Assembly: GCA_027297745.1 (NCBI GenBank)
Contig: JAPUHK010000116.1
Coordinates: 1 to 38,998 of the forward strand
Origin: Planctomycetota bacterium
GTDB lineage: Bacteria > Planctomycetota > PLA2
DNA: 38,998 bases
Direction: 5' to 3'
In this document: positions 23,493 through 33,389 of the stretch, piece after piece
Layout: each line of letters begins with the position of its first letter
How positions within the stretch are numbered: position 1 is the first letter of the stretch
Made by a program: the position numbers and the translations under genes
Notes under the pieces: model-generated
Database searches by the model: none
What the model was told of the DNA's origin: nothing
Seen by the model: the letters and a program-made list of their open reading frames with translations, nothing else

Positions 23493-24452
23493 ATGAGCGA
23501 CTGGGCTGATAGCGCCCAGCCGGGAGACGTATACAGGCTGGTATTCGATCTCACGGCTAGGGCGACGGACGTTCCGTATGAGAGCTTCGTCACCGAGCTG
23601 GTGGAGGCGATGTGTGCGCATTACCACGCCTCCGCTTGCCGCCTCCACCTGGGGCACTCGACCAAGGCGGTGGCCACCGCCGACCCGGGCAACGCACTGG
23701 GGAAGCTCGACCGCAACGAGCGCGCGCGCTTCGACACGATCGACGCGATGCTGGCCGATGCGGTGCGGAAGGACGGCGTGCTGCGCACCGCGCTCGACCT
23801 CGACGGCGGCGATGAGATCTGCAACTACTTGCGCCGCGTGCTTGGGTCCGAAGAGTCGTTCGCCTTCCCCTTGATCACGCGCGGGCAGGCGTTCGGTGCG
23901 GTCACGCTCTATCCCACCGAGGCCTATCCGTTCACCGAGGCGGACGTGCGCGGCCTACAGGCCATCGGCAACGTTCTGCATGCCGCCCGGCATCAGACCG
24001 GACCCGGCCTCATCGGCTCGAATCCCATCCATGTCACTTCCGAGAAGCTGCGTGCGTACCAGGAGCATCTGGAAGAGATCGGGCGCATTCTGGACGAGCT
24101 GATCTTCCTGACCGCGGCGCGCAACGTGCTGTTGCTCGACGTGAACGGCGACTTCATTGCCAAGCGTGGGGAGGAGTCGGACTTCAGCGCCTCGAGCTTT
24201 GCCACGCTCGTGGCCAGCTCCTTCGCCGCCTGCCGCCGCCTGGGCGGGATCTACGGCGCGACCGACATGCGCTCCACGGTCCACGAGGGCGACGAGGGCA
24301 ACGTTTTCGTGATGGAGGTCTCGGACCGCGCCCTGCTCTGTGTGGTCTACGGCGATCACGAGGCCCCGAGCTTGCTGGCCCGCTGGTCCGCTTCGGCGGC
24401 CAACCGGCTGAGCGACAAGTACGAGTCCTTGCTGGAGGCGAGGCTCCTATGA
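23493..24452 (+). CDS. GAF domain + roadblock/LC7 domain protein
   Basis: N-half GAF-like (EESFAFPLITRGQAFGAVTLYPTEAYPFTEADVRGLQAIGNVL); C-half roadblock-like (ILDELIFLTAARNVLLLDVNGDFIAKRG..FATLVASSFAACRRLGG..VMEVSDRALLCVVYGD). Confidence 0.7.
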   Translation: MSDWADSAQPGDVYRLVFDLTARATDVPYESFVTELVEAMCAHYHASACRLHLGHSTKAVATADPGNALGKLDRNERARFDTIDAMLADAVRKDGVLRTALDLDGGDEICNYLRRVLGSEESFAFPLITRGQAFGAVTLYPTEAYPFTEADVRGLQAIGNVLHAARHQTGPGLIGSNPIHVTSEKLRAYQEHLEEIGRILDELIFLTAARNVLLLDVNGDFIAKRGEESDFSASSFATLVASSFAACRRLGGIYGATDMRSTVHEGDEGNVFVMEVSDRALLCVVYGDHEAPSLLARWSASAANRLSDKYESLLEARLL

Positions 24453-24946
24453 CTCGCGGTCATGGGCCGGACCGCACGGTCTTCTACGCCCGGGAGATCC
24501 ACCAGATGAACCTGGTGCTGGGCAAGTTCCTGCAAAAGAGCGGGGCGGAGACGGTGCTGCTCGTCGATGTCGCAGGCCACCTGCTCACCCGCCAGGGGGC
24601 GCAGTCGCCCGCCAGCGAGGACACGATCACGGCGCTCGTTGCCGGTAACTGCGCCGCTTCGCGCGCCATGGCCACCATGCTCGGGACGCAGGAGTTCTCG
24701 AGCTGCATCCGGCGCGGCGGTGGGGGCCACCTGCTGCTGCTCCCGGCCGGGGACGGCATGCTGGCGGTGGCCTTCGGCGACGACACGAGCGTGTCGCTGG
24801 TACGCACCTATGCGCTCGAGGCGGTCCGGCGCCTGAACCCGATCCTGACCCGCGAGCTGGGCGACCCCGCGACGGGCGAGGAGCGCATCGAGAAGGACCG
24901 CTTCGAGGCCGAGATCGACGACGCGCTGACGGACGTCTTCGGTTAG
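24449..24946 (+). CDS. Roadblock/LC7 (MglB-like) domain protein
   Basis: LGKFLQKSGAETVLLVDVAGHLLTRQG..TALVAGNCAASRAMATMLG..LLLLPAGDGMLAVAFGDD; ATGA overlap with the GAF-roadblock gene. Confidence 0.75.
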   Translation: MTRGHGPDRTVFYAREIHQMNLVLGKFLQKSGAETVLLVDVAGHLLTRQGAQSPASEDTITALVAGNCAASRAMATMLGTQEFSSCIRRGGGGHLLLLPAGDGMLAVAFGDDTSVSLVRTYALEAVRRLNPILTRELGDPATGEERIEKDRFEAEIDDALTDVFG

Positions 24947-25099: not shown

Positions 25100-26248
25100 C
25101 TAAACGCCGGCCAGTATGGGGTCCTCGACGAGGACCCGCGGCCGGTACTTGGTGATCACGATCTCGTTGCCGTTCCGGTTGAACTCGATGCGATCCACAT
25201 CGCGCAGGATGCGCGCCAGGCCGCCGACGGCGTTGTTCTCGGGCAGCACCGCGCCGACGCTGGGCGTGAAGTCGCGCTGCGCGTTGCCGGCTTCGCGTGC
25301 ATTGGCCAGCACGCTCGAGTGGTCGTAGCCCTTGCCGGAATCGCGTACCGCCAGCAGCAGCCGCCTGGGATCGAGGATCAGGCGTACCTGGATCGTGCAG
25401 CACTCGATCCCGCAATGGCCGTAGCGGACAGCGTTGTCGAGCGCTTCGTGCAGCGCCCAGCTGGCCCGGTGGACGAAGTCCTCGGGCAGGCTGTTGCGGT
25501 ACAAGACCTCTTCCACGAGCTCCCGCGCGCGCTTGCGCTCGGCCAGGTGGCCGGGCAGGGCAAGCGTGAGCTCGAAGATGTCCTCTTGCGGCGTGGCGAC
25601 GCGCGCAGCCAGCTCGACGCCCGCCGTTTGAATGAACTCTTTGATGTCGAAGGGCTCGATGATGATGTCGTCGGGCTCGACGTGCAGGCGCAGCGCCGCG
25701 CTCTCCCGCTCACCCGGCTTGAAGATGCCGACCACGGGGACGCCGTTCGTGAGCGGGTTGCACTTGACCTCGCGGATCAGGTCTTCCCAGCCCGGGATCT
25801 TGCTCTCGAGCACGACCGCCACGGGGGGATCGCTGTCGAGGCGCCGGAGCATCGTGGGCGTGTCGTCGCTCGTGCTGAGCTCCCATCCCTTTCGTCCGAA
25901 GTGCTCCCCGAGCATCTGCGCGAAGATGTCGTTGCCCTGACCCAGGTAGTAGATCGAGGTGGGGTGCAGGTGCGCGAGGTCTTTCTTGAACGAGCCGACC
26001 GGCGTGACCTCGAGCGAGCCCGGGCCCGGGGCGTAGGCGGCCAGGCCGCCCGATTCGTCTTCCCTCAGCAGGGCCTGGTTCGAGACCGCGATGGAGCACA
26101 AGTCGTCGATCTCCACCGCGTTGCCGGCGCGCAAGTGGCGCCGGATCGTCGCGAAGATCTGCTCCACCATCTCGATCGCCTGCTCGGGGTCGGTCTGCAG
26201 ACGAACAGCGAGGTCGCGTGCGAGTCTTTCCTTAGTGACTGTGACCAT
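25100..26248 (-). CDS. Three-module regulator: HU/IHF-like N-term + degenerate REC-like + RsbW/HATPase-like C-term
   Basis: TKERLARDLAVRLQTDPEQAIEMVEQIFATIRRHLRAGNAVEIDDLCSIAV (HU-like); PPVAVVLESKIPGWEDLIREVKCNPLTNGVPVVGIFKPGERESAALRLHVEPDDIIIEPFDIKEFI (REC-like); WALHEALDNAVRYGH, LLAVRDSGKGYD, GGLARILRDVDRIEFNRNGNEIVITKY (HATPase). Confidence 0.75.
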   Translation of the reverse strand: MVTVTKERLARDLAVRLQTDPEQAIEMVEQIFATIRRHLRAGNAVEIDDLCSIAVSNQALLREDESGGLAAYAPGPGSLEVTPVGSFKKDLAHLHPTSIYYLGQGNDIFAQMLGEHFGRKGWELSTSDDTPTMLRRLDSDPPVAVVLESKIPGWEDLIREVKCNPLTNGVPVVGIFKPGERESAALRLHVEPDDIIIEPFDIKEFIQTAGVELAARVATPQEDIFELTLALPGHLAERKRARELVEEVLYRNSLPEDFVHRASWALHEALDNAVRYGHCGIECCTIQVRLILDPRRLLLAVRDSGKGYDHSSVLANAREAGNAQRDFTPSVGAVLPENNAVGGLARILRDVDRIEFNRNGNEIVITKYRPRVLVEDPILAGV

Positions 26249-26396: not shown

Positions 26397-26465
26397 CTAG
26401 GGGCGGCTGGCGGCCTCCCGTCCCCGGCCCGCGGAAGCCGCGTACGAGTCGGGCAGCTCCCCTAG
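26397..26465 (-). terminator. Long inverted repeat spanning the gspK-like stop codon (possible terminator/attenuator)
   Basis: CTAGGGGCGGCTG ... CAGCTCCCCTAG; no clear U-tract. Confidence 0.35.
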
Positions 26466-27721
26466 GGCGCGTCGGCTCCGACCTCTTTGTACTCTGCGGC
26501 CGGAATATCCCCCAGGTCGGCGGTGCGCACCTCGGTCTCCCAGGTGACCGTTCCTTTCGCGTGGCGCTGGAAGACGGCGCGGCGCTGGTACAGGAAGTTG
26601 TCCCGGCGGGCGGTGACCACGATCAGGAAGAAGTTCGTGCGCACCGTGAAGTCGCGCCCGACGTCGATGTCGTTGCGCCGCAGCATGGCCTGGTCGTTCA
26701 TGCCGTCGACGTTCTGGACGATGTCGTTCAGGTTCTTGTAGGCCTGCTCGAGCGATTGCGCGCCCTGCTCGTCCTCGTTGTCGAGGTACTCGCGGCGCTC
26801 CTCGTCCCGCTCGTGCTTGAGATCCGCGTCCTCATCGGTGTTCAGGAAGCCTCCGCGGCCGTGGAAGATGCTCTCGGCGATGCGCTGCTGGCCCTCCGGC
26901 TCGCGGAACATGGCGCGCAGCACCTGGATCGGCGCCGTGTTGGCGTTGAGACGCCCGTCACCGTAGACGGTCACGAAGTCCAGCAACCCGGGCATCGTTT
27001 GACCGCTATCGATGTCGGTGAACGTCTCCAGAATGCGCTTCTCGCGCAACAGCGTGTGGGCGAAGACGAGGTCGTCGACCGTGTACAGACCCTGCTGCAT
27101 GTTCGCGTTGGGCGCGGGGATCTTGGCCTTGGGGATGCGCGCGTCGCGCTCCTCGCCCAGGCACAGCTTGACCACCGCATCGGCGATCTCGGCGGCCTGG
27201 GCGGGGTCGAGGTCCCACTGGTTATCGCGCAGGTCGCCGAAGCGGCTGTCGCGCAGGAAGTCGAGCAGGTGGACGAACCACTCCCGCGCCCGGCCCCGGC
27301 GCTGTGCGTCGTTGTGCGAGAGCAGGTTGAGGTTGAACTTCCCCTGCTCGTCGTACACCTCCGTGTAGAGCGTGACCTCGTCGCCGTATTCCCGGTCCCC
27401 CTTGCGCACGACCGCGCCCGTTTCCCCGCCATCGGTGCCCCACAGGTCGGCGTAGGAGTCATACGCGGACTGCGGGTCCTCCTCGTCGTCCTTGAGGTCG
27501 CGCAGCAACCGCAGGCGCATCTGCGCCAGCCGCGCCTGGACCGCGCCCTTGAACTGCTGGTTGGCGAGCAGGTTGCTGGCCAGCTGTGACGAGATCGTGG
27601 CTTCGAAGGACAGCTGCGTGACGATGATCGCCACGAGCGGCAGCAACACCAGGACCAGGATCAAGGCGACGCCGCGCTGGGCGGGGGCGGGACGGCCAGA
27701 CATCAAGGGTGAGACGATCAT
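26462..27721 (-). CDS. Type II secretion GspK-like minor pseudopilin
   Basis: QRGVALILVLVLLPLVAIIVTQLSFEA; DEQGKFNLNLL; LLDFVTVYGDGRLNANTAPIQVLRAMF. Confidence 0.85.
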   Translation of the reverse strand: MIVSPLMSGRPAPAQRGVALILVLVLLPLVAIIVTQLSFEATISSQLASNLLANQQFKGAVQARLAQMRLRLLRDLKDDEEDPQSAYDSYADLWGTDGGETGAVVRKGDREYGDEVTLYTEVYDEQGKFNLNLLSHNDAQRRGRAREWFVHLLDFLRDSRFGDLRDNQWDLDPAQAAEIADAVVKLCLGEERDARIPKAKIPAPNANMQQGLYTVDDLVFAHTLLREKRILETFTDIDSGQTMPGLLDFVTVYGDGRLNANTAPIQVLRAMFREPEGQQRIAESIFHGRGGFLNTDEDADLKHERDEERREYLDNEDEQGAQSLEQAYKNLNDIVQNVDGMNDQAMLRRNDIDVGRDFTVRTNFFLIVVTARRDNFLYQRRAVFQRHAKGTVTWETEVRTADLGDIPAAEYKEVGADAP

Positions 27722-27727
27722 GAGCAG

Positions 27728-29140
27728 CTACTTCTTCCTGCTGAGCAGCAGGACCAGCTTGTCGCGCCGGTCGCCGCGGCCCTGGTAATGCACCAGGATA
27801 TCGGACCGCCGGTCCCCGTTCAGTTCTCCCGCCGCCGATTTGATCTGGGCGTACTCCGTGGGGTCGGGGATCGCCACCGTCGCGGCCGGCTTCTCCTCGA
27901 ACAGCGTCTCCGGGACCCCGCGGTAGATGCCGAGCAGCGCCGGCTCGCGGCTGACCAGCAGGTCGCGCCGCCCGTCGCCGTCGAGGTCCCCCCCGTGCTC
28001 GACCACGATCACGCCCCCCAGCGACAGGCGCCCCGAGGTCTCGGTCATCAGCCGCACCTTGACCGGCAGCGTGAGCACGCGGTCCGCGGTGCGCCGGAAG
28101 GGGGTCTTGCCCCCGCGGTTGATGAACAGCGGCACCTTGATGCGTACCTCGCTGCGCACGAAGATGCGCACGCCGTCGCCGACCGACGGCGAAGGCACGT
28201 AGGGCAGCGCCAGGTCGGGCAGCCCGTCGCCGTTCAGATCGTCGAGCACCGGATAGCGCATGTAGCCGGGGACCGACAGGACGAGCCGGCGGCCGTCGTT
28301 CAGACCCCAGTCCTTGAGCGCCATCAGGACGACGGCGTGCCCCACGGGACGGTTCACGGCGAGCACGTCCATGAACCCGTCGCCGTTGAAGTCGACGAAT
28401 TCGAGGCGGTGCTCCTTGGCCTCCGGCAGATGGATGCGGTGGGAGCGCTCGCGCGAGAAGCGGCCCTCGAGGTCGCCCGGAAACACGTTGAGCCCCTGCG
28501 CGTCCAACGTCGCGAAATCGAGCGACGGCCCCCTGTCGAAACGGCCGACCACCCACGCTCCGATGCTGACGCGCTGACGGTAGCGTTCATTTGCGTGCAG
28601 CGCCGTCGTCTCGACCGTCTCGCGCAGCGCGGGGGGCAGGATGGTCGGCTCATCCTTGCCGTAGAACAGCTGGTAGCCGGCCAGCGAGACGTCGACCACC
28701 TCCGGCTTGCCGTCGCCGTCCATGTCCGCCACCAACTGCCGCCACAGGATCTGCTTCGAATTGTGCGGCAGGCCGAGGCCGGCCGGATAGCCTAGTCGGC
28801 GCGGATCGCCCGCGGTCGGCACGACCCACCAGCCGATCCCCGTGCGCACGAGGATCTCTCTGCTCTGCGGTGTCCCGTCGATGTCCGTGACGTCGAACAG
28901 CGCGGCGCCGGCGGGCAGCTTCAGCACGCGGTCGGCCTTGGGGCGCAGGCCCTGCTTGCGGCCGTTCCACAGCCAGATCTCCGTGGGTGTCACCAGCATC
29001 AACTCGTCGAGCCCGTCGCCGTCGAGGTCGCGCAGGATGCGGTAGCTGACCCGTTTCGGGCCTTCGAGCTCGATCACGTCGAACTCCATCCCGGCGACCG
29101 CGGCGCAGCACAGCAGGAGCAGCGCGGTGCAGACTCTCAC
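27728..29140 (-). CDS. Secreted FG-GAP/VCBS repeat protein
   Basis: Signal peptide VRVCTALLLLCCAAVAG; repeats DLDGDGLDELML, DMDGDGKPEVVDV, DFNGDGFMDVLAV, DLNGDGLPDLALP, DLDGDGRRDLLVS, ELNGDRRSDILV. Confidence 0.9.
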   Translation of the reverse strand: MRVCTALLLLCCAAVAGMEFDVIELEGPKRVSYRILRDLDGDGLDELMLVTPTEIWLWNGRKQGLRPKADRVLKLPAGAALFDVTDIDGTPQSREILVRTGIGWWVVPTAGDPRRLGYPAGLGLPHNSKQILWRQLVADMDGDGKPEVVDVSLAGYQLFYGKDEPTILPPALRETVETTALHANERYRQRVSIGAWVVGRFDRGPSLDFATLDAQGLNVFPGDLEGRFSRERSHRIHLPEAKEHRLEFVDFNGDGFMDVLAVNRPVGHAVVLMALKDWGLNDGRRLVLSVPGYMRYPVLDDLNGDGLPDLALPYVPSPSVGDGVRIFVRSEVRIKVPLFINRGGKTPFRRTADRVLTLPVKVRLMTETSGRLSLGGVIVVEHGGDLDGDGRRDLLVSREPALLGIYRGVPETLFEEKPAATVAIPDPTEYAQIKSAAGELNGDRRSDILVHYQGRGDRRDKLVLLLSRKK

Positions 29141-30441
29141 CGTGCGACCTCCACGAAGACGATCCCGGTGCGCGCGGGGATGGCGGCAAGCTGCTTTCCG
29201 GAGCGCACGCGCCCGAGCGACGTCCCGTCCGGCTTCGAGCCCGTGTTCAGCTGCACGTCGAGCTTTGCCGCTTGTACGAGCTTGCCTTCGCCGTCCCCGA
29301 CGAGCAGGCGCACGCCGTTGCCGCGCTCGACGGCTTCGGGCCGTCCGTCTCCATCGAGGTCCGGCAAGAACGTGACGGGCGGCTGCGGGTCGAGGTTCAT
29401 CAGGGCGTCGGGCCCGATCCTGCCCTTGTAGGTCCAGGCCGCCGGCGCGTTGAAGCGCTTGCCGTCGAACAGATAGACCTGGTACAGGCCCGGAGCGCTC
29501 CCTGTCGCCAGCCCGATCACGCCCATGTCGATCGTGCACAGCACGAGGTCGAGGTCGCCGTCCGAGTCCACGTCGAGCAGGTCGGGCCGGATCAACGCCC
29601 CCGCGACCTTGATCGCCGAGGCGGGCGGGTACAGCCCGTTCTTCTCCTTGTTCCACACGCGCCCCTTGAGCCACAGCCAGGCGTGCGTGTCGAACGAGGC
29701 GAAGATGCCCGCCTTGCCCCACGAGGGCGTGATCAGCAGGTCGAGCCGGCCGTCCCCGTCCACGTCGGCGATGAGGATCTGCGTGCGGCGCAGCGCGGCC
29801 GCCTTGGCGCCGGCCTCCTCGTCATGCAGCGCGATGCGCTCGACCAGCTTCGGCCCCTTGTAGACGAGGATCTGCTTGTCTTCGAAGAAGACCAGCTCGC
29901 TGCCCGCGCCGGACCAGTTGCCCGCCACCGGCACGGCGATCTCGTACTTGATCGCGAAGGTCTCGTTGCGCCGGATCTCGATCGTGCTGCGTGGAGGGAT
30001 CGGCACGAGCTTGCCGTTGACGTGGAATCCGTCCAGGTCGGGCAGCACCGCGTCGTCGATGCCGTCGCCGTCGACGTCGCCGGGCGAATCGAGCAGCGCC
30101 GGCAGGCCGGCGCCCAACGCTCCGAGAAGGCACCGCGCTCCGGCCGGCCCGCGTTTGGAGGCGTCCCCCATCGGGTCCGGCACGGCGTGGTAGTAGCCGT
30201 CGATCACGAAACCGCACAGCCCCTTGCCGACTACCGTGACCGCCGGTGCGGCGATGCGGGTGACCGGCTGCTTGCGCAGGCCGTGCTTCGTGCCGCGAAA
30301 GATGAACAGCTCCTTCGCGGTGACCGCCACGATGTCCTCGAAGCCGTCGTTGTCCAGGTCCACGACGCGGACCTGGTGGACTTCAGCTCCGAGATCGATG
30401 GATTGGAGAGTGAGACCAGCCAGGAGTAGAGCGGAGAGCAT
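29137..30441 (-). CDS. Secreted FG-GAP/VCBS repeat protein
   Basis: DLDNDGFEDIVAV, DVDGDGIDDAVLPD, DVDGDGRLDLLI, DVDSDGDLDLVLC, DLDGDGRPEAVE; GTGA overlap with the next gene. Confidence 0.9.
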   Translation of the reverse strand: MLSALLLAGLTLQSIDLGAEVHQVRVVDLDNDGFEDIVAVTAKELFIFRGTKHGLRKQPVTRIAAPAVTVVGKGLCGFVIDGYYHAVPDPMGDASKRGPAGARCLLGALGAGLPALLDSPGDVDGDGIDDAVLPDLDGFHVNGKLVPIPPRSTIEIRRNETFAIKYEIAVPVAGNWSGAGSELVFFEDKQILVYKGPKLVERIALHDEEAGAKAAALRRTQILIADVDGDGRLDLLITPSWGKAGIFASFDTHAWLWLKGRVWNKEKNGLYPPASAIKVAGALIRPDLLDVDSDGDLDLVLCTIDMGVIGLATGSAPGLYQVYLFDGKRFNAPAAWTYKGRIGPDALMNLDPQPPVTFLPDLDGDGRPEAVERGNGVRLLVGDGEGKLVQAAKLDVQLNTGSKPDGTSLGRVRSGKQLAAIPARTGIVFVEVAR

Positions 30442-30485
30442 GAGTAGGGAGCGATTCTACCCCGCTCGTGCTCCCTGTCGCCGCG

Positions 30486-31334
30486 TCAGTCGGTCAGCTC
30501 GGCACGGCCGAAGACGAGCGCCGCGGCCAGCGGCAGACCGAGCACGAAGACCAGCGCGCCGCCGAGCTCCGGCACCCCGTACGGCGGCCATTGGGCGCTC
30601 GACAGCCCGCGCCCGAAGTCGCGCAGCTGCACCCAGAACCCCTCGGTCGCGCGCAACGGAGAGGCAGCCGCGACGTCGTCCGCCAGACCGAGCACGTTGG
30701 GCAGATAGTGCAGCATCATCAAGAGGAAAAGCGCGCTGAACACCGCACCCGCGGCGGAGCGCGTCCAACTGGAGATGAGCATGCCCAGCCCGGCCGCCGT
30801 CAACAGCGCCGGCAGCAGGATCAACGACGCCCACCACGCGCGCGCCCGCAGGGTCGCCGCCGTGAAGTTCGTGTCCTGCTCGATCTCCTCGGTGAACTTC
30901 CAGCCGCCATCCGCTTCGCCGCCGCCGCCCGCCATGGGCACGTCTCCGAACCCGAGATCGCTCCCCGCCAGCGCGGCCGATCCCAGGCACAAGATCAGGA
31001 ACAGCGTCGCCAGCACGGCCAGCGCGCAGGCCTTGCCGAGCACGAAGCCGGCGCGGCCGACGGGCCGCGGCAGGATCCAGCGCACCGTTCCCCGGGTGCG
31101 GTCGCCGGCGAGCGTGATCGCGCCCGCGAAGACCAGGAAAAAGGCGGCGATCGCACCGCCTTGCTTGGCCGCCTCCGCGAACGCGGACCAGCTGGTGAAG
31201 CGGTGCGGTGTGGTCTTGCCTATGAAGTAGGTCCCCACCGCGGTGAGCAGCAGGCCCAACCAGATCAGGGAGCTGCGCGCGAGGTCGCGCAGCTCCGCGC
31301 GGAAGCAGGCCCCGAGTCCACGCAGGGCCTTCAC
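30486..31334 (-). CDS. ABC transporter permease
   Basis: VKALRGLGACFRAELRDLARSSLIWLGLLLTAVGTYFIG.. multiple TM; LAGDRTRGTVRWILPRPVGRAGFVLGK; GTGA overlap with the ATPase gene. Confidence 0.9.
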   Translation of the reverse strand: MKALRGLGACFRAELRDLARSSLIWLGLLLTAVGTYFIGKTTPHRFTSWSAFAEAAKQGGAIAAFFLVFAGAITLAGDRTRGTVRWILPRPVGRAGFVLGKACALAVLATLFLILCLGSAALAGSDLGFGDVPMAGGGGEADGGWKFTEEIEQDTNFTAATLRARAWWASLILLPALLTAAGLGMLISSWTRSAAGAVFSALFLLMMLHYLPNVLGLADDVAAASPLRATEGFWVQLRDFGRGLSSAQWPPYGVPELGGALVFVLGLPLAAALVFGRAELTD

Positions 31335-32221
31335 CGGTCCACCTCGCGCAGATAGAGGTCGTCCAGCGTGTGGCGCTGCAGCGCCAGCTCGAAAACGCGC
31401 ACGTCCGCGCCCACGCAGGCCGCGGCGGCGTCCGCCGCCTGCGCCTCCGTGGCTTTCAAGATCAGCACACCGTCCTGCGCGTCGCAGCCGAGGTCGGGCA
31501 GCGCCTCGGCGATGGCGGCGCGCGCGCGTTCCGGGTCGTTCACGCGCAGGCGGTAGCGCGAGTCCTCGGTGTGCAGCAGGTCCTCGACCGCCCCCGAGCG
31601 CAGCGTGCGTCCCGAGACGAGGATGGCCGCGTGCGTGCACAGCCCTTCGACCTCCGCCAGACGATGCACGGAGACGAGCACGGTCGCGCCCCGCGCGTGC
31701 TCCTCCTGCAGGATGCCGCGGATCATCTGCAGCCCCTTCGGGTCGAGGCCGTTCTGCGGCTCGTCCAGCACGAGCAGGTCCGGCGCTCCGAGCAGCGAGC
31801 AGGCGAGCCCCAGGCGCTGGCGCATCCCGTGGCTGAAGCCACCCGTTTTGCGGTCGGCCGCGTAGGAGATGCCCACGCGCTCGAGCACCCCCTGGTCCGC
31901 TTCGATTCCGGCATAGGCACCCGCACGCTTGATCGTCTCGCTCGCCGTCAAGTGGGCGGGGAACACGGCGTCCTCGATCAAGAAGGATGCCTTGGCGACG
32001 GCGGCCACGTGATCGCTTACGTCCATGCCCAACACGCGTGCGGACCCGGCGTCGGAGCGGATCAGGCCCGCGAGGATGCGCAGCGTGGTGGACTTACCCG
32101 CCCCGTTGGGGCCCAGGAGGCCGAACAGGCTTCCGGACGGCACTTCGAGGTCCAACCCGCAGAGCGCCTCGTGGGGGCCGTAGCTCTTGTGGAGTCCCGA
32201 GCATTCGACCGCCGCGGGCAT
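31331..32221 (-). CDS. ABC transporter ATP-binding protein
   Basis: LLGPNGAGKSTTLRILAGLI (Walker A); FSHGMRQRLGLACSLLGAPDLLVLDEPQNGLDPKG (signature/Walker B). Confidence 0.96.
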   Translation of the reverse strand: MPAAVECSGLHKSYGPHEALCGLDLEVPSGSLFGLLGPNGAGKSTTLRILAGLIRSDAGSARVLGMDVSDHVAAVAKASFLIEDAVFPAHLTASETIKRAGAYAGIEADQGVLERVGISYAADRKTGGFSHGMRQRLGLACSLLGAPDLLVLDEPQNGLDPKGLQMIRGILQEEHARGATVLVSVHRLAEVEGLCTHAAILVSGRTLRSGAVEDLLHTEDSRYRLRVNDPERARAAIAEALPDLGCDAQDGVLILKATEAQAADAAAACVGADVRVFELALQRHTLDDLYLREVDR

Positions 32222-32244
32222 GGCGTAGAGGGTATCTGATTTGG

Positions 32245-32318
32245 GCCGTAGCCTTGGACCCGGCCCTAGCCTCCGCCTTGGAGTCGAAGGCTGAGGCTGA
32301 GGCCGAGGCTGAGGGTGG
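32245..32318. repeat. Imperfect inverted low-complexity repeat (TAGCCTTGG.. / GGCTGAGGCTGAGGCCGAGGCTGAGG)
   Basis: C-rich arm then (GGCTGA)n arm in a divergent intergenic region. Confidence 0.6.
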
Positions 32319-32336
32319 GTTACGCTGTACCCCACC

Positions 32337-33389
32337 GTGGACCTGCGCACGACGCACACCGTCCTGTTCAAGAAGTTCGCTCACTTCTACGACGCGGGCG
32401 TACCGCTCGTGCAGGCGCTGGAGACCGCGGCGCGCGACCTGCCGGCGGGCGTCAAGGAAGCCGTCGACGGGATCACGAGCGAAATCTACCGCGGGTCGAG
32501 TCTCGCGGAAGCCTTCGCGCAACGGCCGGAGTTGTTCGGCGCGGACGTCGTGGAGCTCTTGCGGGTGGGGGAGCGGCGCGGCGACCTGAGCACCGCGGCC
32601 CGCAGCATCGCCTCGGGTCTCGAGGATCTGGTGCTGGCTGCCACCCGCGTGAACCATGCCGGACTCGACGCATTGCTACGAAAGGTCGAGGGAGGCGGAA
32701 TCCTGCACCTGGAGCAGGACGGCGCCAACGGCGAAGGGCGCATCCGCGTGCGTGACGGCGACCGGCTGCGTCCCGAGGGCGAGACCGACATCCTCGAGCT
32801 CATCCCGGCCCTGATGGAGCGCGCGCGCATCGGGGCGGCCGGGGGCCAGGGCGTGTTCCTGTGGGAGCAGCGCATCGTGCGCGCCGCCGTGCTCATCGGG
32901 ACGCGGGCTACCAGCGCGGTGGTGCGCATCTCCGGCCCGCTGCCGCCGACGCCGCGCGAGCTCGGAGCCTGGCTCAAGGGCCCGCCCACCGTCATGTGTG
33001 TAGCCGGGCCCGTGCGCGACGACAAGGACGCCGTCTTGTGGTCGGTCGTGAAGGCCCTGGCGGAAGCGGATGCGAAGGTGGTGAGCGTGGGGCTGCCGGT
33101 CCCGGAGACGCTCGAGGCGGACGATCTTGAAGCCGCGGTGGCCCAGGATCCCGACGTGCTCTGCATCGCGCGGATTGGGGGCCGCGATCAGGTGCAGGAG
33201 CTTGGGCGCTGGGTGGCTGCGGGCCTTCCGGCCGTCTGCGGGATCGACGCGGGCAGCGCGGAAGCCGCGCGCAGGCAGCTGCAGGTGTGGATCCTGAGGG
33301 ATCTCGTAGGTCCCGTGCTCGAAGTGAGGGGCCACGACGTCATCCGGCGTGGGAAGCGCAACAAGAACTCGCAGCCCAAAAGGGGGTAG
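32337..33389 (+). CDS. T2SS/T4P GspF-type half-domain fused to a degenerate GspE/PilB-like ATPase
   Basis: N-term KFAHFYDAGVPLVQALETAARDL..ITSEIYRGSSLAEAFAQRPELFGADVVELLRVGERRGDL (GspF-like); then GGILHLEQDGANGEGRIRVRDGDRL, TVMCVAGPVRDDKDAVLWSVVKAL, AVAQDPDVLCIARIGGRDQVQELGRWVAAGLPAVCGIDAGS (aligns by eye with GspE; Walker A lost). Confidence 0.7.
   Translation: MDLRTTHTVLFKKFAHFYDAGVPLVQALETAARDLPAGVKEAVDGITSEIYRGSSLAEAFAQRPELFGADVVELLRVGERRGDLSTAARSIASGLEDLVLAATRVNHAGLDALLRKVEGGGILHLEQDGANGEGRIRVRDGDRLRPEGETDILELIPALMERARIGAAGGQGVFLWEQRIVRAAVLIGTRATSAVVRISGPLPPTPRELGAWLKGPPTVMCVAGPVRDDKDAVLWSVVKALAEADAKVVSVGLPVPETLEADDLEAAVAQDPDVLCIARIGGRDQVQELGRWVAAGLPAVCGIDAGSAEAARRQLQVWILRDLVGPVLEVRGHDVIRRGKRNKNSQPKRG

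Follow-up and report, generated by a model that had tools for sequence, protein, structure and literature searches.

A planctomycete fusion of an HU fold, a pseudo-receiver and an RsbW-type HATPase: an apparently undescribed, probable variant of the partner switch

The stretch of DNA analysed here, hereafter called the window, comprises 38,998 nucleotides of a Planctomycetota genome (GenBank assembly GCA_027297745.1, contig JAPUHK010000116.1). Its minus strand carries a gene for a 382-aa protein in which an HU/IHF fold, a receiver (REC) fold that we read as a pseudo-receiver and an RsbW-type HATPase follow one another. The features discussed below are the following, with positions counted in the window and residues in the 382-aa protein:

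25100..26248, minus strand: HU / pseudo-REC / HATPase gene, 382 aa, ATG at 26248, stop codon at 25100-25102
25967..26248, minus strand: HU/IHF-fold domain, residues 1-94 (PF00216; AlphaFold model of residues 1-96 and Foldseek)
26045..26068, minus strand: HU arm tip LREDESGG, residues 61-68, acidic and without the intercalating proline
25595..25960, minus strand: putative pseudo-REC domain, residues 97-218 (PhoB, 2.2e-5; YycF, 3.8e-16, by profile; key residues)
25805..25807, minus strand: phosphoacceptor position, Glu148 in place of Asp (alignment to PhoB)
25655..25657, minus strand: Glu198 (EPF for KPF) at the conserved Lys of active receivers (alignment)
25139..25579, minus strand: RsbW/SpoIIAB-type HATPase (Bergerat) domain, residues 224-370 (PF13581; Foldseek matches to SpoIIAB, RsbW and LvrC)
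25415..25450, minus strand: N-box HEALDNAVRYGH, residues 267-278, with E268 and N272 (alignment)
25328..25342, minus strand: G1 box DSGKG, residues 303-307 (alignment)
25214..25225, minus strand: G2 box GGLA, residues 342-345 (alignment)
26462..27721, minus strand: GspK/PilX-like gene directly upstream of the fusion gene (Pfam match below cut-off; linkage conserved)

The codon-position G+C of the 382-aa open reading frame (0.69/0.42/0.87) is like that of the coding neighbours, and the plus-strand frame at 25100-26248 was rejected as antisense and unrelated. A preliminary description of this DNA had given both the coordinates 25100-26248 and the length of 382 aa correctly; the strand, which it left unstated, is the minus strand. 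The three domains that it proposed—HU/IHF, REC and an RsbW-type HATPase—are supported by Pfam, PDB profile searches, AlphaFold and Foldseek. Modelled as a whole with the family alignment, the protein reaches a pLDDT of 82.9 with secondary structure as expected, and a Foldseek search with this full model ranks LvrC best (9qih, E=1.2e-12), followed by SpoIIAB and RsbW. Searching the PDB with a 30-member family profile recovered IHF (1.5e-15), YycF (3.8e-16) and RsbW (4.1e-14), values that are a test less of the window protein by itself than of the family, because the profile contains better-conserved relatives. No PHROG match was obtained and tblastn gave no match to plasmids, leaving a phage or plasmid origin unsupported, and no Rfam match was obtained across the window at gathering thresholds.

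The fusion had initially been singled out as a single unusual protein. Unusual it is—none of the NCBIfam models scores above cut-off on those HU-bearing fusions that were scanned, and searches of an open-access library turned up no description of an HU-REC-HATPase fusion—but it is not a one-off, since it recurs phylum-wide. A second, full-length copy with 28% identity lies on another contig (C3) of the same genome, and some match is present in 37 of 59 relatives. At 1e-25, the family profile matches 70 of the 147 Planctomycetota genomes sampled, and a full-length match including the HU segment is found in about 44 of the 147, as counted from rows. The contig scan with the window protein as single query returned no relative. 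Scanning GTDB genomes with another query (A2) yielded 78 loci, nearly all of which are titled Planctomycetota or lower planctomycete taxa (a few only 'bacterium' or 'uncultured bacterium'), a distribution that, resting on two short patterns, does not prove a restriction to Planctomycetota. One of the 78 loci (L057) comes from Candidatus Uabimicrobium amorphum, whose genome is complete.

After duplicate removal, one and the same REC-HATPase core is seen in three main architectures, namely HU-REC-HATPase (29 members), HU-HU-REC-HATPase (31) and STAS-REC-HATPase (13), with 10 members having no recognised N-terminal domain. STAS and HU interchange at the N-terminus of this core, and in the tandem HU-HU forms the first HU match is often partial only. 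Loci with STAS instead of HU include L021, L022, L023, L025, L026 and L027. At L086, a free-standing 98-aa HU-like open reading frame lies three genes before the STAS-REC-HATPase gene, possibly a split fusion. A quickly searched maximum-likelihood tree built from the REC-HATPase core shows 7 changes of architecture, compared to a mean of 41 with shuffled labels; several long branches make the deeper order of this tree unsure. The clade containing the window protein is well supported (SH-aLRT 100) and its stem is 1.86 changes per column long, which together point to a diverged, fast-evolving paralog.

In 56 of 75 loci, the gene directly upstream on the same strand encodes an MshEN-domain protein, an assignment made by scanning one representative (L032; PF05157, 2.1e-16) and extended to the others by homology. 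In some lineages the kinase gene is followed by a STAS gene and by another MshEN gene, and the 53-residue c-di-GMP motif of the neighbouring MshEN proteins is partly retained, varying among lineages. The paralog on C3 (L115 8086-12119, in genome G000) heads an operon-like run in which it is followed by genes for a STAS protein (PF01740, 1.5e-16; the anti-sigma antagonist model TIGR00377 scores above its cut-off), an MshEN-like stretch (PF05157, 4.4e-5) and a SpoIIE phosphatase (PF07228, 1.1e-34). Judged by its predicted domains, this run is a complete set of parts for partner switching; the pair of HU-kinase and STAS genes is retained in three related genomes (G001, G002 and G003).

Two side observations concern other members of the family. 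STAS proteins encoded directly after an HU or degenerate-HU kinase (L115 9251-10417, L068 9164-10183, L087 8925-9929) share a CxxC...CPxC segment resembling a zinc ribbon, and their HATPase-like tail is weak or degenerate. At L043, L044, L047, L056 and L102, genes resembling mraZ and rsmH—so named from sequence—are found a few genes downstream of an HU-HU-REC-HATPase gene and form the apparent start of a cell-division cluster.

As for the window copy itself, no adjoining sigma factor or STAS gene was identified, and no partner-switch genes (STAS, PP2C/SpoIIE phosphatase) were found beside it. Its GspK/PilX-like upstream neighbour is also present in three related genomes (L110, L111 and L112), a linkage seen within one family only. 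This neighbour opens a stretch (26462-33389) of GspK/PilX-like, FG-GAP, ABC-transporter and divergent GspF-like genes, the order of which is preserved in related genomes belonging to the same family. On the other side, plus-strand genes at 23493-24946 encoding a GAF-Roadblock and a Roadblock/LC7 protein (PF03259) are convergent with the HU-kinase gene; homologs of both are present in one related genome (G003, L112).

Within the window protein, the HU assignment is borderline by profile: PF00216 covers residues 4-58 with E=5.9e-5 and 23.7 bits, against a cut-off of 22.4. Several relatives match the same model at E=7.9e-11 to 7.5e-18, and a single-sequence phmmer search with the 96 HU residues gave no match in the PDB. 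Structure prediction for residues 1-96 alone, using an alignment of the HU segments from 19 relatives, gave a pLDDT of 89 and the HU topology, i.e. two helices, a three-stranded sheet with a beta arm and a third helix. All 50 PDB matches listed by Foldseek for this model are of the HU/IHF type, the viral histone-like protein pA104R included. The scores across the family and the fold predicted for residues 1-96 led to the rejection of a chance HU match, and the HU/IHF fold of the N-terminal ~90 residues, which the preliminary description had named as the point to be checked, was borne out by the model and its Foldseek matches.

A canonical HU arm carries the basic motif GRNPxTG; the window protein has LREDESGG there, with Glu replacing Pro63, meaning that the basic DNA-binding arm with its intercalating proline is absent. 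The motif REDESGG is preserved in four related genomes, and this conservation indicates an arm that has been kept rather than one that has decayed. The arm has a net charge of -2 and the whole segment one of -4; this genome also encodes two canonical HU proteins, with charges of +5 and +10 and basic arms. Given the acidic arm and the lost proline, canonical DNA binding by the HU domain of the window clade is unlikely as far as these residues tell, and of the DNA- or partner-binding module first envisaged, the DNA-binding half is weak for the window protein.

The same evidence weighs on the alternative of a DNA-tethered regulator, in which HU would bind or bend DNA and thereby place the anti-sigma/kinase domain at promoters or the nucleoid. 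The HU fold is well supported, tandem HU-HU forms occur, and most of the other members examined retain KDPxTG or a similar motif—that is, the arm-tip proline—on arms that outside the window clade are often basic or neutral (+5 in L009), all of which would suit such a tether. Members with arms of this kind may bind DNA. Yet the arm of the window clade is acidic and has lost the proline, the domain is net negative, and STAS, which is not known as a DNA-binding domain, can substitute for HU on the same core. On balance, we regard DNA tethering as unlikely.

The C-terminal HATPase is matched by PF13581 (HATPase_c_2) over residues 236-367 (E=1.6e-11). N272, D303, G305 and G307 do not vary across a 30-member alignment, in which 29 sequences have Glu at the position of E268, and the window protein retains all ATP-contact residues checked. 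It scores 16.1 bits with the NCBIfam RsbW equivalog NF003144, for which the cut-off is 145. After the G2 box, a deletion of two residues is common to five of the six window-clade sequences aligned and is absent from the G040 copy. Together, the long stem of the clade and this altered ATP lid suggest that kinase activity may have been lost. The window copy could then be a catalytically dead scaffold, with nothing but the family's interaction surfaces preserved, an alternative with which the long stem, the shortened lid, Glu148 and the lack of adjoining partner-switch genes would agree; however, the retained ATP-contact residues and the conservation of the gene and its neighbours in related genomes argue the other way and make a dead scaffold rather improbable.

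The middle third of the protein matches PhoB receivers by phmmer (2.2e-5), and the alternating beta-alpha fold of REC domains is present. The phosphoacceptor position, which had been left unclear in the preliminary description, is Glu148, located in the segment AVVLESKIPGW. In addition to having Glu148 for Asp, the window protein has no acidic pair, Phe for Thr and Glu198 for Lys. Glu occupies the phosphoacceptor position in seven of eight window-clade members; Asp is retained there in 54 of the 54 other members with HU. All 54 have another residue for Thr83 (mostly Tyr, Leu, Phe or His) and Glu or Gln at the position of Lys105; where the beta1 pair has its first acidic residue, they carry Pro, Lys or Arg. 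We read this pattern as that of a receiver degenerate throughout the family, i.e. a putative pseudo-receiver. A conventional response regulator of the LvrC type, with a histidine kinase phosphorylating the receiver and the receiver controlling an anti-sigma output, could draw on LvrC being the best structural match of the full model and a target of LvrB (PMC13269768) and on the Asp retained in those 54 members, but it is very improbable given the family-wide loss of the conserved Thr/Ser, the Lys and the first acidic position, the Glu acceptor of the window clade and an upstream neighbour that is usually an MshEN protein, not a histidine kinase.

The reading we prefer, and hold to be reasonably probable, is that the window protein belongs to a family of Planctomycetota proteins that act as partner switches of the RsbW/LvrC kind. 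Observed directly are the domain folds (from sequence and predicted structure), the conservation, the residue losses and the gene linkage, whereas for kinase activity, partners, dimerisation, signal and target we rely on inference; the protein's resemblance to partner-switch proteins follows from the context of the C3 paralog and from the fold. The input in most members would probably be the MshEN-domain protein encoded next door. The Bergerat domain is predicted to bind ATP and, family-wide, its most likely role is to phosphorylate a Ser/Thr of a partner with a STAS domain, to sequester a target (a sigma factor, for example), or both; a SpoIIE-type phosphatase would undo the STAS phosphorylation. 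Through HU the proteins would form an intertwined dimer, and members whose arm is basic might also contact the nucleoid. Having the receiver fold without most of the receiver chemistry, the pseudo-REC domain is probably an interaction surface between the HU and kinase parts rather than a phosphorylated switch. In the window copy, HU with its conserved acidic arm probably docks a protein, not DNA, and the location of the gene behind a GspK-like gene suggests that this copy was perhaps recruited to an envelope or secretion-linked operon. More tentative, and in our estimate rather doubtful, is the fuller picture of an HU dimer—with or without DNA—in a phylum-wide anti-sigma/partner-switch kinase with MshEN input and a possible link to c-di-GMP, in which the arm of the window clade would have switched from DNA binding to protein binding.

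Partner switching is known mainly from Bacillus, the actinobacteria and their stressosome relatives. That the fusion recurs across Planctomycetota beside parts of this known regulatory switch is what makes it real and widespread, and it apparently constitutes a conserved, hitherto undescribed variant of the partner switch. If true, a planctomycete partner switch with HU and a pseudo-receiver would provide the phylum with a concrete, testable switch, and it raises the question of what role a nucleoid-protein fold plays within a kinase in which STAS can stand in for it. For testing the role of HU, the family offers a natural series of members with a basic arm, a neutral arm, an acidic arm, tandem HU domains or no HU at all.

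Several known systems invite comparison. LvrC of Leptospira, a REC-Bergerat protein for which an anti-sigma role under REC control has been proposed and whose receiver is phosphorylated by the kinase LvrB (PMC13269768), joins a receiver fold to an RsbW-like Bergerat domain in the same order as the window protein. It differs in having no HU and a canonical, phosphorylated receiver, whereas the planctomycete family has a degenerate receiver and MshEN, STAS and SpoIIE neighbours. RsbW and SpoIIAB share the HATPase fold with its N, G1 and G2 boxes, and STAS and SpoIIE genes lie beside the C3 paralog; however, RsbW and SpoIIAB are single-domain proteins, and the planctomycete fusion has two extra N-terminal domains. 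The usual MshEN neighbour carries the N-terminal domain of MshEN/GspE proteins (PMC5013675), but at ~200 aa it is too short for a GspE-type ATPase. HU domains embedded in larger proteins are also found in the HU-HIG and CCDC81 families (PF18291, PF14908, PF18289), to which some relatives show weak Pfam matches below cut-off; the partner domains differ according to the Pfam descriptions. Finally, the HU/IHF nucleoid proteins have the same fold, topology and length as the HU domain of the window protein, which differs from them in being fused to a signalling protein and in carrying, in this clade, an acidic arm without the intercalating proline. The window protein departs in at least one tested feature from each of RsbW, active receivers and DNA-binding HU.
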